DNA of 35,025 nucleotides, taken from NCBI GenBank assembly GCA_002773095.1, contig PFCG01000030.1, positions 1-35,025 of the forward strand. The letters run 5' to 3'. The stretch comes from Candidatus Moranbacteria bacterium CG10_big_fil_rev_8_21_14_0_10_35_21 (GTDB lineage Bacteria > Patescibacteriota > Minisyncoccia > Moranbacterales > UBA2206). Within the stretch, counting starts at the first letter, position 1, and every line of letters starts with the position of its first letter. Shown here piece after piece: positions 24,036 to 30,317 of this stretch. The notes beneath the pieces are model-generated. The model had not been told where the DNA came from. It worked only from the letters and a program-made list of their open reading frames with translations, and did not search any database. The position numbers and the translations under genes were made by a program.

Positions 24036-25313
24036 ATGTGTTTAACTATACCGGCGAAAGTGGTAGAAATAAAAGGACGGGAAGCGATTATTCAAAAAGA
24101 ATCTGCTACTAAAACAATTGATATTTCTCTCGTCCCCGATGTTAAAATCGGGGATTGGATTTTATTTGCCAATCAAACGGCAGTGCAGGTGATTTCCGAG
24201 ACGGATGCCAAAGAGATTGTGGATCTTTTGGAAAGTTATCATCCCAATGCTCAACCGGATAAACTGTCGGAGAAATTTAAGAATATTATTGAAAATTCCA
24301 AAAAGCGAGATCTAACCAAAGAGGAAATAATTTATCTTTTGCAAACGAAGGACGCAGAAAAAGAAGCGCTGTATTCCGAAGCGGATGTGGTGCGTCGAGC
24401 GAATCTTCAAGATTTCATTTGCATCCACGGCATTATTGAATTTTCCAATTATTGTAAAAACGATTGCGCCTATTGCGGATTGCGCTGTCAAAACTCTGAG
24501 GTTAAGCACTATAGAATGACGCCGGAAGAAATAGTGTCCACAGCGGTAAAAGCAGCCAATGTGAAGGGCTATAAACTTTTGGTTTTACAATCTGGAGAAG
24601 ATCCATATTACACGGCGGAAATGTTTGCGGATATTATCCAAAAAATAAAAGCGACCGCTAAAGTTTTTATTTTTATCAGTGTGGGTGAGCGTGGATTGGA
24701 TTTCTACAAAAAATTGAAAGAAGCGGGCGCTTCGGGAACACTTTTCCGTTTTGAAACGGCTAATACGAAACTTTTTCAAAAAATGCATCCGAATGGAAAA
24801 AATTTTGAAAGTCGTCTGGAGCATTTGAAATTTATGAAAGAACTAGGATATTTTGTTGCTACTGGATCCATTATTGGGTTGCCCGAACAGACACTAGAAG
24901 ATTTAGCCGACGATATAATGATAATGAAAAAATGGGCTAATATGATTTCCATGGGACCATTCGTGCCTTCAAAAAATACGCCGTTGGAAAAAGAAAAATC
25001 GGGAGATCCTGAAATGAATTTTAAAATGATTTCAGTCGTGCGCCTTCTGATGCCGAAAATCCGCATTCCGGTCGTGACGGCTTTGGAAACTTTGGCGGAC
25101 GAAGGCGGAAGAAAAAAAGGACTTTTAGCAGGAGCTAATTCTTTAATGCTCAATCTCACACCGGGAAAATATCGTGCCAATTATAAAATATATGACAACA
25201 AATTTTTTGATAAAGAAAGCATTTGGGAAAAATATGGTCTTTTCAAAGCGGAAGAAAGCTATCAGATGATTGAAGAAAGGATGGGTGAAGAATTAAATAA
25301 AGTTATAAAGTAG
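24036..25313 (+). CDS. HypC-HydE fusion: N-terminal HypC/HupF chaperone domain joined to HydE-type radical SAM domain
   Basis: N-term MCLTIPAKVVEIKGREAIIQKESATKTIDISLVPDVKIGDWILFANQTAVQ (HypC, Cys2 kept), then CKNDCAYCGLR CX3CX2C radical SAM and HydE-like QSGEDPYY, GLPEQTLEDLADD, PGKYRANYKIYDNKF. Confidence 0.88.
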   Translation: MCLTIPAKVVEIKGREAIIQKESATKTIDISLVPDVKIGDWILFANQTAVQVISETDAKEIVDLLESYHPNAQPDKLSEKFKNIIENSKKRDLTKEEIIYLLQTKDAEKEALYSEADVVRRANLQDFICIHGIIEFSNYCKNDCAYCGLRCQNSEVKHYRMTPEEIVSTAVKAANVKGYKLLVLQSGEDPYYTAEMFADIIQKIKATAKVFIFISVGERGLDFYKKLKEAGASGTLFRFETANTKLFQKMHPNGKNFESRLEHLKFMKELGYFVATGSIIGLPEQTLEDLADDIMIMKKWANMISMGPFVPSKNTPLEKEKSGDPEMNFKMISVVRLLMPKIRIPVVTALETLADEGGRKKGLLAGANSLMLNLTPGKYRANYKIYDNKFFDKESIWEKYGLFKAEESYQMIEERMGEELNKVIK

Positions 25314-25336: not shown

Positions 25337-25390
25337 ACCCTGTGAAATTCTGCTCCGCGGACCACGCTTTGTGTGGTATTTCACAGGGAA
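25337..25390. repeat. Palindromic repeat family A-like, copy 4, between hypC-hydE and hydG
   Basis: CCCTGTGAAAT / ATTTCACAGGG perfect 11-bp arms with inner hairpin ACCAC...GTGGT. Confidence 0.7.
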
Positions 25391-25398
25391 AAGAATTT

Positions 25399-26775
25399 AT
25401 GGATAAAATAAAAAAAGTTCTGAATGAGGAAAAAATATTTTCCATTCTCAAAAAAAATCAAAATCCTAGCAAAAAAAAGGTAGCGGAAATATTGAAAAAA
25501 TCTTTGAATAAAAAAGGACTCACTTTGGAAGAAGTGGGAGCTTTGGTCAATGTGAAAGATAAAAAACTTTTGGAAGAAATTTTTTCCACAGCCGGAAAAA
25601 TAAAAAAAGAAATTTATGGAGAACGGCTAGTGCTTTTTGCACCACTCTATATTTCTAGCTTTTGTGTTAATGATTGTGAATATTGCGGATTCCACGCGCG
25701 CAACAAGATGCCGAGAAAGAAATTGAAATTGAGTGAAATCAAGAAACAAGTGAAAATTTTGGAGGATATGGGTCACAAGCGACTGCTTTTGGAATTTGGC
25801 GAACATGAAAAAGAAAATCCGATTGACTATGTGGTGGAAGTGATTAAAACCATTTATGCCACCAAATCCAAAAAAGGTTCCATTCGTCGAGTGAATGTGA
25901 ATATCGCTTCCACGACAGTGGAAAATTATAAAAAATTAAAAAAAGCCGGTATAGGAACCTACCAATTGTTTCAAGAAACTTATCATCAAGAAACATACAA
26001 AAAAATGCACAAAGGTCCGAAAGCGGACTATGCTCGTCAGCTTTTCGCGCACGACAAAGCATTTGAAGCGGGGATTGATGATTTGGGGATTGGGGTTTTG
26101 TTTGGACTCTTTGACTGGAAATTTGAAGTGTTGGCGTTGCTTTCTCACGCCAAATATATGGACAAGAAATTTGGAGTGGGTCCTCACACCATTTCAGTTC
26201 CGCGTTTTCAGCCGGCGGATTCGGTGAATTTCAAGCCGAAACATTATGTGGACGAAAATGAACTTTTAAAAATAGTGGCCATTCTGCGCCTGGCTGTGCC
26301 ATATACCGGAATGATTATTTCTACACGAGAAAGAGCCGAGATTAGGGAAAAAGCTTTCATCACTGGAATTTCTCAAACCAGTGCGGCCTCACGCACGGCT
26401 CCCGGTGGTTATGGCAAAGGGCATAATTTGGAGCAATTTCACACGGCTGATCATCGCAGTGTGTCTGAATTTATTAGCGCGCTTTTGGAAAAAGAAATGA
26501 TGCCTAGTTTTTGCACAGCTTGCTATCGCATTGGCAGAACTGGAGAAAAATTTATGGATTTGGCGAAACCGGGAGATATTCAAAATTTCTGCCGGCCTAA
26601 TGCTATTTTGACTTTCAAAGAATATCTGTTGGATTATGCCGACAAAAAACAGAAAGTTTTGGGTGAAAAAATAATCCAGAAATATCTCAAGCTTATTCCC
26701 GACCAAAAAATTAGAAAAGAAACCCAAAAACGTTTAGAAAAAATTACTAAAGGTAAGCGAGATTTTTATTTTTAG
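25399..26775 (+). CDS. hydG: HydG-type radical SAM tyrosine lyase (CO/CN-forming family); start trimmed to ATG 25399
   Basis: CVNDCEYCGFHARN (CX3CX2C) and C-terminal CTAC-X22-C motif (CX2CX22C) diagnostic of HydG versus ThiH. Confidence 0.88.
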   Translation: MDKIKKVLNEEKIFSILKKNQNPSKKKVAEILKKSLNKKGLTLEEVGALVNVKDKKLLEEIFSTAGKIKKEIYGERLVLFAPLYISSFCVNDCEYCGFHARNKMPRKKLKLSEIKKQVKILEDMGHKRLLLEFGEHEKENPIDYVVEVIKTIYATKSKKGSIRRVNVNIASTTVENYKKLKKAGIGTYQLFQETYHQETYKKMHKGPKADYARQLFAHDKAFEAGIDDLGIGVLFGLFDWKFEVLALLSHAKYMDKKFGVGPHTISVPRFQPADSVNFKPKHYVDENELLKIVAILRLAVPYTGMIISTRERAEIREKAFITGISQTSAASRTAPGGYGKGHNLEQFHTADHRSVSEFISALLEKEMMPSFCTACYRIGRTGEKFMDLAKPGDIQNFCRPNAILTFKEYLLDYADKKQKVLGEKIIQKYLKLIPDQKIRKETQKRLEKITKGKRDFYF

Positions 26776-26804: not shown

Positions 26805-27572
26805 ATGGAAAATAAAAACAAACCAAAAATTGCTATTGTTAGTCTGACGTCCTGTGAAGGGTGCCAGTTTGCGCTTCTGGATTTGGGAGAAAGATTTTTG
26901 GATTTTGCCAATCAAGTAGAAATGGTGGAATTTCGACTTTTAGAAGATGAAGAAGATAAGGGAGAAAAATTAGATGTTGGAATTATAGAAGGTAATCCGA
27001 TGACAGAAGAAAATATTAAAACTTTGAAAAATCTGCGCGAGCGCAGTAAATTACTGGTAGTGATTGGAAATTGTGCCGCTATGGGTGGTATTCCGGAAAT
27101 AAAAAATTATCAAGAAGGAAAAAATACCATCAAACATGTCTATAAATATCTTCAAGGGATTGAAAATCCGGAAATCAAGGAAGTGGATAATTTTGTGAAA
27201 GTGGATTTCACTTTTCCGGGTTGCCCCATTAATGCAGAAGAATTTTTGCTGTATATGCCGGGATTATTAGCTGGAAAAATTCCCCAGATTCCTGACAATC
27301 CAGTTTGTGTGGAATGTAAGAAAAAGGGCAATCGTTGTTTACTATTGGATAAAAAGCCGTGTTTTGGGCCAATGATTTTGGGAGGATGTGATGCAGCTTG
27401 TCCGACATCTCGAATGGTTTGCCAAGGTTGCAGAGGCTTGCGTCCCAAGGGTAATATCAAGGCTATGCGAGCTACCTTGAAAAATATGATGACTGATGAA
27501 GAATTTGAAAATACTGCTGAAATTTATGGCCTCAGAGATGATTTAGAAGAAAGAGAAAAAAAGATTAACTAA
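26805..27572 (+). CDS. [NiFe] hydrogenase small subunit (group 3-like, soluble, no signal peptide)
   Basis: SLTSCEGCQFALLDLGERF; VVIGNCAAMGGIPE; FPGCPIN; additional C-rich cluster region CVEC...GGCDAACPTSRMVCQGCRG. Confidence 0.92.
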   Translation: MENKNKPKIAIVSLTSCEGCQFALLDLGERFLDFANQVEMVEFRLLEDEEDKGEKLDVGIIEGNPMTEENIKTLKNLRERSKLLVVIGNCAAMGGIPEIKNYQEGKNTIKHVYKYLQGIENPEIKEVDNFVKVDFTFPGCPINAEEFLLYMPGLLAGKIPQIPDNPVCVECKKKGNRCLLLDKKPCFGPMILGGCDAACPTSRMVCQGCRGLRPKGNIKAMRATLKNMMTDEEFENTAEIYGLRDDLEEREKKIN

Positions 27573-27575
27573 AAT

Positions 27576-28520
27576 ATGAAGGCTCTAAAGATTTTAATAA
27601 TATTATTAGCTATAACTGGAAGTACGGTCTGGTCTTTTCAAAAAAAGGTAGTGGAAGTTAAAAATGGAAAGCTATCAATAGAGGTAGAAAATATTTTTTC
27701 CACTCCTTGCTCTCAGCCGATAGAATATTCGATTGGCAATGTGGATGAACGCTTTGGAATGGCGCGGGAGGATTTTCAAAAAATAGTTATGGACTCGGAA
27801 AAAATCTGGGAAAATGCTATGGGAATGAATATTTTTGAATATAATCCGGATGGATTAGTAAAAGTGAATTTAATCTATGATGAAAGGCAAGCCAGTTCCG
27901 ATGAATCATTAAAATTAGAAAAAGAGTTGGCAGCGTTAAATTCCAGCGCTAATGTTTTGAATAAAAATTACGATGACCTAAAAATTTCTTATGAAAAAAA
28001 ATCCAAAGAATATGAAGAAAACTTAGCTCAATATGAAAAAAATTTAAAAAAATACAATAACAAAGTAGATGATTGGAATAAGAGCGACAAAAGTTCTCAA
28101 TCAGAATATGAAGAACTTAAGGATGATAAAAAAGATTTAGAGGAAGAATATAAAAAGCTAGACAAGGAAAGAAAGGATTTAAATTCTCAGTCAGAAAAGA
28201 TTAACGGAGCGGTGAAGAAAGAAAACAAACTTGTTAATAATTATAATAGCAAAGTTAATACCTATAAAGATAAATATGGAGCTACTCGAGAATTTGAAAA
28301 AGGAGTTTATTCTGCCGATATCATTAATATATATCAATATCAAACAGAAGAAGATTTGCGGTTGACCCTCTCTCATGAATTTGGACACGCTCGCGGAATT
28401 GATCATGTGGAAAATCCCTTATCTCTGATGTATTATTTAATGGCTGATCAGGATATGGATAACCCAACACTGACCAATGAGGATATTAGGGAAATGAAAA
28501 ATGTTTGTGAAATATTATGA
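27576..28520 (+). CDS. Matrixin/metzincin-like zinc metalloprotease with N-terminal signal/TM segment and coiled coil
   Basis: HEFGHARGIDH (HExxHxxGxxH) followed by SLMYYL Met-turn; central E/K-rich coiled coil; hydrophobic N-terminus. Confidence 0.8.
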   Translation: MKALKILIILLAITGSTVWSFQKKVVEVKNGKLSIEVENIFSTPCSQPIEYSIGNVDERFGMAREDFQKIVMDSEKIWENAMGMNIFEYNPDGLVKVNLIYDERQASSDESLKLEKELAALNSSANVLNKNYDDLKISYEKKSKEYEENLAQYEKNLKKYNNKVDDWNKSDKSSQSEYEELKDDKKDLEEEYKKLDKERKDLNSQSEKINGAVKKENKLVNNYNSKVNTYKDKYGATREFEKGVYSADIINIYQYQTEEDLRLTLSHEFGHARGIDHVENPLSLMYYLMADQDMDNPTLTNEDIREMKNVCEIL

Positions 28521-28619
28521 ACCCCGTTAGAATTTATGATTATACGGGATACAAAATAATAATAATTTAAATAATTTTCACTATTGGTTTAAACAATAGT
28601 TGCAAAATTCTAACGGGGT
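28521..28619. repeat. Palindromic repeat family A, long copy 5, fills the gap between metalloprotease stop and large-subunit start
   Basis: Perfect 15-bp arms ACCCCGTTAGAATTT (28521-28535) / AAATTCTAACGGGGT (28605-28619); inner ACTATTG-gtttaaa-CAATAGT. Confidence 0.8.
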
Positions 28620-29877
28620 GAATATAAAAATAAATCACATTGCTAAAACAGAAGGACATGCCGGTTTTGCAGCCAGTATTATTAAGGGCGACGTCAAGTC
28701 GGCTAAATTAGAAGTACAGGAAGGCATGCGCTTGATTGAAGGTATATTGGTTGGTCGGAATTTTATGGATGTTCCGATTGTGGCTCAAAGAATTTGTGGA
28801 ATTTGTCCGGTAGTTCATAATTTAACTTCTATTAAGGCTTTGGAAAATGCTATGGGAGTCAAAGTGAGTGAAGAAACAAAAAAATTAAGAACTCTTTTGG
28901 AATTAGGACAACTTATTCATTCTCATGCGTTGCATCTTTTCTTTCTGTCTTTGGCTGATTTTTTGGATATGGAAAATGATCTAACTTTAATTAAAGAATA
29001 TCCGGAAGAAACAAGAATGGTTATTAGAATTAGAGAATACGGAATGAGTTTGATTAAAATTATTGGCGGTAGGGTGGTTCATCCATTAACCAATGAAGTT
29101 GGAGGATTTAAGAAAGTGCCCACCACGGAAGAAATTCAACAGTTGATTCAAGGAAGTGAAAAAATTATTTCCGAAGTGCTAGAATTAGGAGAATTTTTCC
29201 GAAAAATAAAGATTCCTGAATTTTCCAGAAAAACTGAATATGTTTCTTTGGGGCAAAAAGGTCGGTATGCTATTTATGAAGGCGATATTATTTCTTCTCA
29301 GGGATTGCATATTCCGGCGGAAAAATTTGAAGCTAATTTTCATGAATTGCAAAAGCAAAAAGAAGTCATTAAAAAAGTAGAGCATAACGGAAAGAGCTAT
29401 ATGATTGGTGCTATTGCTAGGATTAATAATAATCGAGACAAATTAATGCCCCTAGCGCATAAATATTTAGAAAGTCTTGGCTGGACATTCCCGGATTTCA
29501 ATCCTTTCCATAATATTTTATCTCAAATGACAGAGGTAATTCATTGTATTGAAGAATCAGGAAAAATTCTCAAAGAATTGTCTCACGTAGATTTAAACAA
29601 AGCTTTGACTGAAAAATATGCAGTCAAGGAAGGAGTAGGTGTTGCGGCAGTAGAAGCTCCTCGCGGAACGCTTTATTATCATATTGAAGTGGATAATAGG
29701 GGATATGTAAAAAATGTGAACATTATGACGCCTACGGCTCAATTCCTTTCTAATTTAGAGGATGATATTGCTCTTTATCTTCCAAAAGTTATGAATTTAG
29801 AGGAGCATGAAAGAGAGAAAAAATTGCGGGCTTTTATTCGGGCTTATGATCCGTGCATATCTTGCGCGGTCCACTAA
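28618..29877 (+). CDS. [NiFe] hydrogenase large (catalytic) subunit, no C-terminal extension; GTG start 28618
   Basis: RICGICPVVH (L1) and DPCISCAVH-stop (L2); N-term NIKINHIAKTEGHAGF. Confidence 0.94.
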   Translation: MNIKINHIAKTEGHAGFAASIIKGDVKSAKLEVQEGMRLIEGILVGRNFMDVPIVAQRICGICPVVHNLTSIKALENAMGVKVSEETKKLRTLLELGQLIHSHALHLFFLSLADFLDMENDLTLIKEYPEETRMVIRIREYGMSLIKIIGGRVVHPLTNEVGGFKKVPTTEEIQQLIQGSEKIISEVLELGEFFRKIKIPEFSRKTEYVSLGQKGRYAIYEGDIISSQGLHIPAEKFEANFHELQKQKEVIKKVEHNGKSYMIGAIARINNNRDKLMPLAHKYLESLGWTFPDFNPFHNILSQMTEVIHCIEESGKILKELSHVDLNKALTEKYAVKEGVGVAAVEAPRGTLYYHIEVDNRGYVKNVNIMTPTAQFLSNLEDDIALYLPKVMNLEEHEREKKLRAFIRAYDPCISCAVH

Positions 29878-29884
29878 TTTTATT

Positions 29885-30044
29885 ATCCCAGCGCCAATTC
29901 CGATTTAATTGTAAATAATGTAAAGTTTAATTCGCGGATTCGCCTACGGCTTAAATATTTGATTTAATAAGTTAATAATTGCGAATTAGTGCGGGACGCT
30001 CGTTTTTATAGCCACTCGCCCAGCTCGCGGACAAAAAAGGCGTG
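29885..30044. repeat. Long composite repeat (family B with upstream inverted half), copy upstream of hypA
   Basis: tatcccagcgccaattccgatttaatt...ttaattcgcggattcgcctacggctt...gcgaattagtgcgggacgctcgtttttatagccactcgcccagctcgcggacaaaaaaggcgtg; same order of blocks at 30328-30485. Confidence 0.75.
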
Positions 30045-30317
30045 CATGATTTTCTTTTAGCTAAACAGATTATTGATAAGGTTCTGGAAATAACACAGGA
30101 AAAAAAATTGGAGCAAGTTTCCAAAGTTTTTTTGGAAGTTGGAACGATATCTATGGCACACGATAGTTTCGACGAACATCCGGAAGAAATTAATTTGGAA
30201 AATTTGCAGTTCGGATTGGAAAGCATCGCCAAAGATACAATTTTGAAAGATGTAAAATTTAATATAAAGAAAACAGAAGGGGATAGTTGGAAAATAACCA
30301 ATATTGAGGTAAAATAA
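30042..30317 (+). CDS. HypA-like nickel chaperone lacking the C-terminal zinc-binding domain (GTG start)
   Basis: MHDFLLAKQIIDKVLEITQEKKLEQVSKVFLEVGTI...; HypA-like N-terminus, no cysteines in the protein. Confidence 0.75.
   Translation: MHDFLLAKQIIDKVLEITQEKKLEQVSKVFLEVGTISMAHDSFDEHPEEINLENLQFGLESIAKDTILKDVKFNIKKTEGDSWKITNIEVK

Follow-up and report, generated by a model that had tools for sequence, protein, structure and literature searches.

A HypC-HydE fusion co-occurring with HypD-less [NiFe] hydrogenases of Patescibacteria: probable core of an alternative pathway to the iron half of the [NiFe] site

INTRODUCTION

Hydrogenases of the [NiFe] and [FeFe] types are unrelated, and the metal sites of both carry CO and CN ligands that come from separate machineries. 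The [NiFe] site needs an Fe(CN)2CO unit.

According to a 2025 review, six Hyp proteins are required for the anaerobic synthesis, and the anaerobic origin of the CO ligand of [NiFe] enzymes is the most pressing open question; HydG is not mentioned in its text (PMC12134894). HypC, or HybG, can by itself carry Fe(CN)2CO via Cys2 to the apo large subunit, with which it makes contact (PMC8692609, PMC11565642). On the [FeFe] side, HydG furnishes each iron with two CO and one CN, giving an Fe(CO)2(CN) synthon that passes directly to HydE (PMC11736057, PMC12752695). No publication on a HypC-HydE fusion, or on HydE or HydG serving [NiFe] enzymes, was found in the open-access literature.

Here, we describe a locus in which elements of both machineries are joined in a single protein. 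The window, i.e., the whole stretch of DNA that was analyzed, comprises 35,025 nucleotides of Candidatus Moranbacteria bacterium CG10_big_fil_rev_8_21_14_0_10_35_21.

RESULTS AND DISCUSSION

Domain composition of the fusion protein

One continuous open reading frame of the window (24036..25313, plus strand) encodes a protein of 425 amino acids, in which a HypC domain (residues 1 to 65) is followed by a linker and by a HydE radical SAM domain (residues 88 to 393). The HypC part (24036..24287, plus strand) retains Cys2 within an MCLTIP signature, which includes Thr4, while its canonical His is replaced; the HydE part (24291..25310, plus strand) carries the SAM-cluster motif CKNDCAYCG, corresponding to Cys140, Cys144 and Cys147. 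Translation confirmed the single frame, its coordinates and both motifs as originally predicted, and the alignment placed an Ala in the column of the His that had been described as lost.

A scan with Pfam and NCBIfam models, a domain search having been proposed as a check of the original prediction, recovered a HypC domain and a complete HydE domain, each above its curated cut-offs. In particular, HupF_HypC (PF01455) scored 59.8 bits over residues 1 to 65 (cut-off, 28.5), the TIGR00074 HypC model scored 58.8 bits (cut-off, 48), and the TIGR03956 HydE model scored 295.3 bits over residues 88 to 393 (curated equivalog cut-off, 254.6). Furthermore, by sequence, the large part of the protein finds its best PDB matches in HydE chains (7o1o, for example, at 2.3e-78), and the first 64 residues find theirs in HypC chains (2z1c and 3vyr). 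The models of PylB, BioB, ThiH and HydG all scored far below their cut-offs, so the radical SAM half is HydE, as had been proposed, rather than a member of another family such as BioB or PylB; HydG is ruled out as its identity on the same grounds. The merging of two genes by an assembly error is likewise ruled out, because ten genomes hold the same architecture in continuous frames free of internal stops. The structure predicted for the fusion from three sequences was poor (mean pLDDT, 54), and its domain arrangement is unusable.

Distribution of the fusion and relationships of its HydE domain

The search proceeded from a scan of genome contigs to the order, the class and the phylum, followed by the reading of the loci. 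The first contig scan returned the full-length fusion from two further Peregrinibacteria bins, with 54 to 58% identity, and the whole search extended the architecture to nine Patescibacteria genomes besides that of the window (G000): G477, G478, G164, G652, G501, G601 (L080, 7836-9146), G600, G694 and G603. The eight fusion genomes with a family label belong to seven families, G501 and G601 sharing one. All 10 fusions match HupF_HypC, Radical_SAM, the HypC model and the HydE model, the latter at an E value of ≤0.001, with the comparison to the cut-off referring to the window protein alone. Two more genomes, G144 and G139, encode a HydE of the same type lacking the HypC domain; the G139 sequence is truncated by the contig end, with its start present. 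The genomes are drafts that look like metagenome bins, although only two are titled as such, with an estimated completeness of 86 to 100% where given (there is no figure for G477 and G478), and two of the twelve HydE genomes are rated 100% complete. The fusion is spread over many tiny-genome bacteria, always in the company of a [NiFe] hydrogenase for which the usual assembly gene hypD is lacking, so that the metal center of this enzyme appears to be made by another route.

Within G601, L080 and the stretches L131-L214 encode few radical SAM proteins overall, though the fusion and a group 3b hydrogenase are present. A further HydE match, in G535 (L085, 3260-5119), was set aside: it falls below the HydE cut-off and combines a HydE-like radical SAM domain with a methyltransferase domain, possibly representing an undescribed enzyme.

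The three cysteines of the CX3CX2C SAM-cluster motif (C140, C144 and C147) are invariant in the ten fusions. Eleven residues are invariant in the [NiFe]-linked HydE sequences and missing from three classic HydE sequences; they include Cys129 and His131, located just ahead of the SAM-cluster loop. The [NiFe]-linked HydE proteins form a clade apart from classic HydE (support, 100/99), the classic sample being small (n = 3).

The [NiFe] hydrogenase and the natural exchange of its maturation genes

Downstream of the fusion, the window encodes, all on the plus strand, a HydG tyrosine lyase (25342..26775), a group 3b-like [NiFe]-hydrogenase small (delta) subunit with Oxidored_q6 and sulfhydrogenase HydD/ShyD matches (26805..27572), a coiled-coil protein with a matrixin-like M10 zinc-protease end (27576..28520), the large (alpha) subunit (28600..29877) and a HypA-like nickel chaperone lacking the zinc domain (30042..30317). 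The matrixin-like gene lies between those of the two hydrogenase subunits. The large subunit has the four active-site cysteines and ends with DPCISCAVH, with no C-terminal extension. The HypA-like protein (91 amino acids, GTG start, MHDF) reaches 34.0 bits with the Pfam HypA model (cut-off, 28.9) and 32.9 bits with TIGR00100, below the cut-off of 88.1; HypA is weak or absent in most genomes.

All 12 genomes that carry a HydE of this kind, namely, the ten fusion genomes, G144 and G139, encode a [NiFe] large subunit. The fusion is linked to hydrogenase subunit genes in G000, G477 (in the order HypC-HydE, HydG, small subunit, large subunit), G164, G652 and G601; the HydG and large subunit genes adjoin tail to tail in G652 and G164, and the hydrogenase operon of G601 lies approximately 5 kb from the fusion. 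Genes for large, small, diaphorase and FeS subunits occur together in seven genomes, as in group 3b, while the stretches read for G000 and G600 hold the large and small subunits only. A distinct two-subunit type with a short small subunit is found in G477, in G478 and as one of the enzymes of G144, and the large subunit of G139 groups with this type in the tree.

HypD is absent from all 12 HydE genomes and present in all four relatives that have a [NiFe] hydrogenase but no HydE (Fisher P = 5.5e-4, a value that is not corrected for kinship and, since the genomes are related, overstates the evidence somewhat). These four relatives (G107, G124, G048 and G088) allow the same hydrogenase to be compared in two maturation contexts. 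The large subunit of G000 is 68% identical to theirs, its small subunit is 76 to 80% identical, all five large subunits group in a single clade (support, 100/100), and each of the five genomes has a HypA-like gene after that of the large subunit. Where the four relatives agree on a residue, G000 departs from them at 29 sites, six of which correspond to its unaligned N-terminal extension and none of which is a CxxC cysteine. HypD, HypE and HypF are all encoded in the four relatives, in which a search with the window protein gave no HydE or HydG match; G000 retains the hydrogenase and the HypA-like protein and possesses HydG and HypC-HydE instead of that set. It follows that two maturation gene sets serve one orthologous hydrogenase and that, as judged from gene content, the iron branch in the window genome is the product of a natural swap.

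The fusion had been read originally as a Rosetta-stone link between an [FeFe]-type synthon processor and a [NiFe]-type iron carrier. The association itself is strongly supported by the co-occurrence with [NiFe] hydrogenases, by the absence of HypD in 12 of 12 genomes and by the natural swap. However, a mere link understates the case: the HypC/D/E/F iron branch looks to have been replaced.

Features of the HypC domain and of standalone HypC

Cys2 is invariant in 10/10 fusions, and Thr4 is fixed as well. The His of the VHxGFA segment, on the other hand, is found in none of the 10 fusions versus 15 of the 16 distinct standalone HypC proteins of relatives, and this loss fits the loss of HypD. The sole standalone HypC devoid of the His is that of G093, a genome in which neither a HypD nor a HydE match was found. 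There (L011, 1492-2376), a standalone HypC of the fusion type (MCLTIP, no His) is followed by a 221-amino-acid protein with a HypC-like VLVHYGF segment and then by a [NiFe] small subunit.

Besides the fusion, five genomes (G164, G501, G601, G694 and G603) also encode a standalone HypC (L064 6382-6654, L079 3292-3522, L080 7601-7831, L121 5916-6143 and L120 9356-9583); the fused HypC domain might therefore have another role there. These five proteins keep the His, most of them with a His-rich tail, despite the absence of HypD.

Proposed maturation pathway and ligand set of the product

The fusion probably lies at the heart of an alternative way of assembling the iron half of the [NiFe] site in the absence of HypD, HypE and HypF, for which we infer the chemistry, the capture on Cys2 and the insertion. 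HydG would cleave tyrosine to yield an iron-CO-CN synthon, and the HydE domain would take this synthon in its mononuclear form, its radical SAM chemistry releasing the iron from the cysteine carrier. By means of its Cys2, the fused HypC would then capture the iron before a dimer of two units can form, dimerization being the step toward the [FeFe] cofactor. In this way, the fusion of HypC to HydE would divert the mononuclear iron, which would reach the [NiFe] enzyme by way of Cys2, and a direct handover of iron inside the fusion protein may be envisaged, as the original prediction had it. Finally, HypC-HydE would dock on the apo large subunit and insert the iron, and nickel would follow, in the window genome probably via the HypA-like protein.

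A broader proposition, which we favor on balance and with less assurance, is that of a third route to the [NiFe] site, in which all CO and CN would derive from tyrosine via HydG, HydE would act in a mononuclear branch, the fused HypC would deliver the iron, and HypD, HypE and HypF would be dispensed with; this route would be Patescibacteria-wide and, for an orthologous hydrogenase, would have traded places with that of the Hyp proteins. Several observations weigh against the pathway as proposed, among them that no HydG was found in G601 and that five fusion genomes also have a standalone HypC. In addition, the ligands do not match, the synthon having one cyanide and two CO and the site having two cyanides and one CO, and two genomes (G144 and G139) use an unfused HydE.

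Another reading is that the pathway runs as proposed and that the HydG-type unit is itself inserted, leaving the enzyme with nonstandard ligands, for instance, Fe(CO)2(CN). Such a set is suggested by the stoichiometry of HydG, which provides each iron with one CN but two CO (PMC11736057, PMC12752695), and by the fact that neither the cyanide-making HypE nor a genuine HypF was found in the six genomes searched for them. The large subunits, however, point the other way: both CxxC motifs are present in 17/17 sequences, and the 39 columns invariant over these 17 sequences include both motifs and EPRG, the active site thus keeping its conserved frame. The conserved motifs equal those of Hyp-matured relatives and suggest the same cofactor. 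We regard a nonstandard ligand set as unlikely.

HydG as the putative source of CO and CN

The window HydG scores 564 bits with TIGR03955 (cut-off, 312) and matches PDB entry 4wcx at 3e-167; its open reading frame begins with a GTG at 25342, and the likely start is the ATG at 25399. The ligands of the SAM and auxiliary clusters (C108, C112, C115, C391, C394, C417 and H282) are invariant in seven HydG sequences. Since all of them are kept, it is plausible, at the level of the sequence, that the HydG proteins of these loci cleave tyrosine and form CO and CN.

HydG is encoded directly after the fusion in six genomes (G000, G477, G478, G164, G652 and G600). In G601, a local search of approximately 959 kb, nearly the whole genome, revealed no HydG, ThiH or other tyrosine lyase; no HydG adjoins the fusion in the neighborhoods of G694 and G603, and no further HydG occurs within the 372 kb read of G501, whose contig stops at the fusion. 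The HydG step is thus not seen in every fusion member, and either HydG was missed in G601, G694 and G603 or the source of CO and CN differs in that clade. It is possible to hypothesize from these three genomes that HypC-HydE works without HydG, with iron, CO and CN coming from another source and HydG being an optional partner. Against this stands the position of HydG immediately after the fusion in six genomes, and we hold a HydG-independent fusion to be a little less likely still than a nonstandard ligand set.

Absence of the Hyp iron branch

The HypE, HypF, HydF and HydA searches covered six HydE genomes (G000, G164, G477, G478, G144 and G139). HypE was found in none of them, apart from weak scraps of 17 to 18 bits in two, and was detected in 4/4 HypD-bearing relatives; nothing near the HypF cut-off occurred in the same six genomes, while in each of the four relatives a single long match aligned with the latter half of the model. 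The approximately 959 kb of G601 contain no HypD, HypE, HypF, HydF or HydA, only GTPase-like scraps.

An ordinary Hyp iron branch could nevertheless be present and have been missed through assembly gaps or extreme divergence, in which case the fusion would be merely auxiliary. The genomes are drafts of 86 to 100% estimated completeness, and the HypE and HypF searches took in seven of the 12 HydE genomes (the six named above and G601). HypD, however, is recognized at 390 to 420 bits in each of the four relatives, and all 12 HydE genomes, including the two rated fully complete, are without it; HypE shows the same pattern, and the almost fully read G601 lacks all three proteins. A hidden Hyp branch is therefore, in our judgment, highly improbable.

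Absence of the [FeFe] partners

Neither HydF nor Fe_hyd_lg_C was detected in G000, G164, G477, G478, G144 and G139, and an ordinary [FeFe] maturation locus is ruled out by the absence of HydF and HydA. HydF exceeded its cut-off only in G059, and Fe_hyd_lg_C was found only in G059 and G088. The Fe_hyd_lg_C protein of G088 (L068, 5899-7347) is encoded beside HypD, lacks the TSCCP and MPC motifs of the H cluster and is perhaps a [NiFe] electron-transfer subunit.

The least likely explanation of all is that HydE and HydG were left behind by an [FeFe] system since lost, or work for a hidden [FeFe] enzyme, the [NiFe] neighborhood being incidental. In its favor, no further role has been established for HydE and HydG, and some Patescibacteria do carry HydE, HydF and HydG together (G059 and G503, the former also with an [FeFe] hydrogenase). 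Those two [FeFe]-type genomes, however, have no [NiFe] large subunit, whereas the genes considered here are intact, include a HydE of a separate clade that is fused to HypC, have [NiFe] genes alongside in 12 of 12 genomes and, in the six genomes where both were sought, are accompanied by neither HydF nor Fe_hyd_lg_C.

Comparison with known systems

If [NiFe] hydrogenases are indeed matured by HydG and HypC-HydE, the rule of six Hyp proteins has an exception, tyrosine is one anaerobic source of CO, and the chemistry of HydE acquires a mononuclear branch, which could be examined separately from H-cluster assembly; moreover, a compact set of maturation genes would suggest itself for producing [NiFe] enzymes in other hosts.

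The group 3b [NiFe] hydrogenases described in CPR bacteria (PMC10811913) are of the same kind and from the same radiation as those considered here, but the text of that study does not mention HydE, HydG or maturation. The HypX route, which provides the CO ligand under oxygen, resembles the proposed pathway in being an alternative ligand supply to the [NiFe] site; different from it, HypX is another kind of protein and gives only CO, to HypCD (PMC12134894), whereas here the whole iron branch appears to be replaced.

With [FeFe] maturation by HydE, HydF and HydG, in which HydE adenosylates and reduces the HydG synthon, the locus shares a HydG that has all its cluster ligands and, next to it, a HydE above the curated cut-off. 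However, neither HydF nor an [FeFe] hydrogenase was found where searched, HydE is fused to HypC beside [NiFe] subunits, and eleven diagnostic residues set the fusion-type HydE apart from three classic HydE proteins. With the Hyp pathway, in which HypE and HypF act with a HypCD scaffold, it has in common the four cysteines of the [NiFe] large subunit that is served, the use of Cys2 in a HypC domain and, in the window genome, a HypA-like protein. It differs in that HypD is missing from 12 of 12 genomes, that HypE and a genuine HypF were not found where searched, and that HypC is joined to a radical SAM HydE, with HydG encoded next to the fusion.
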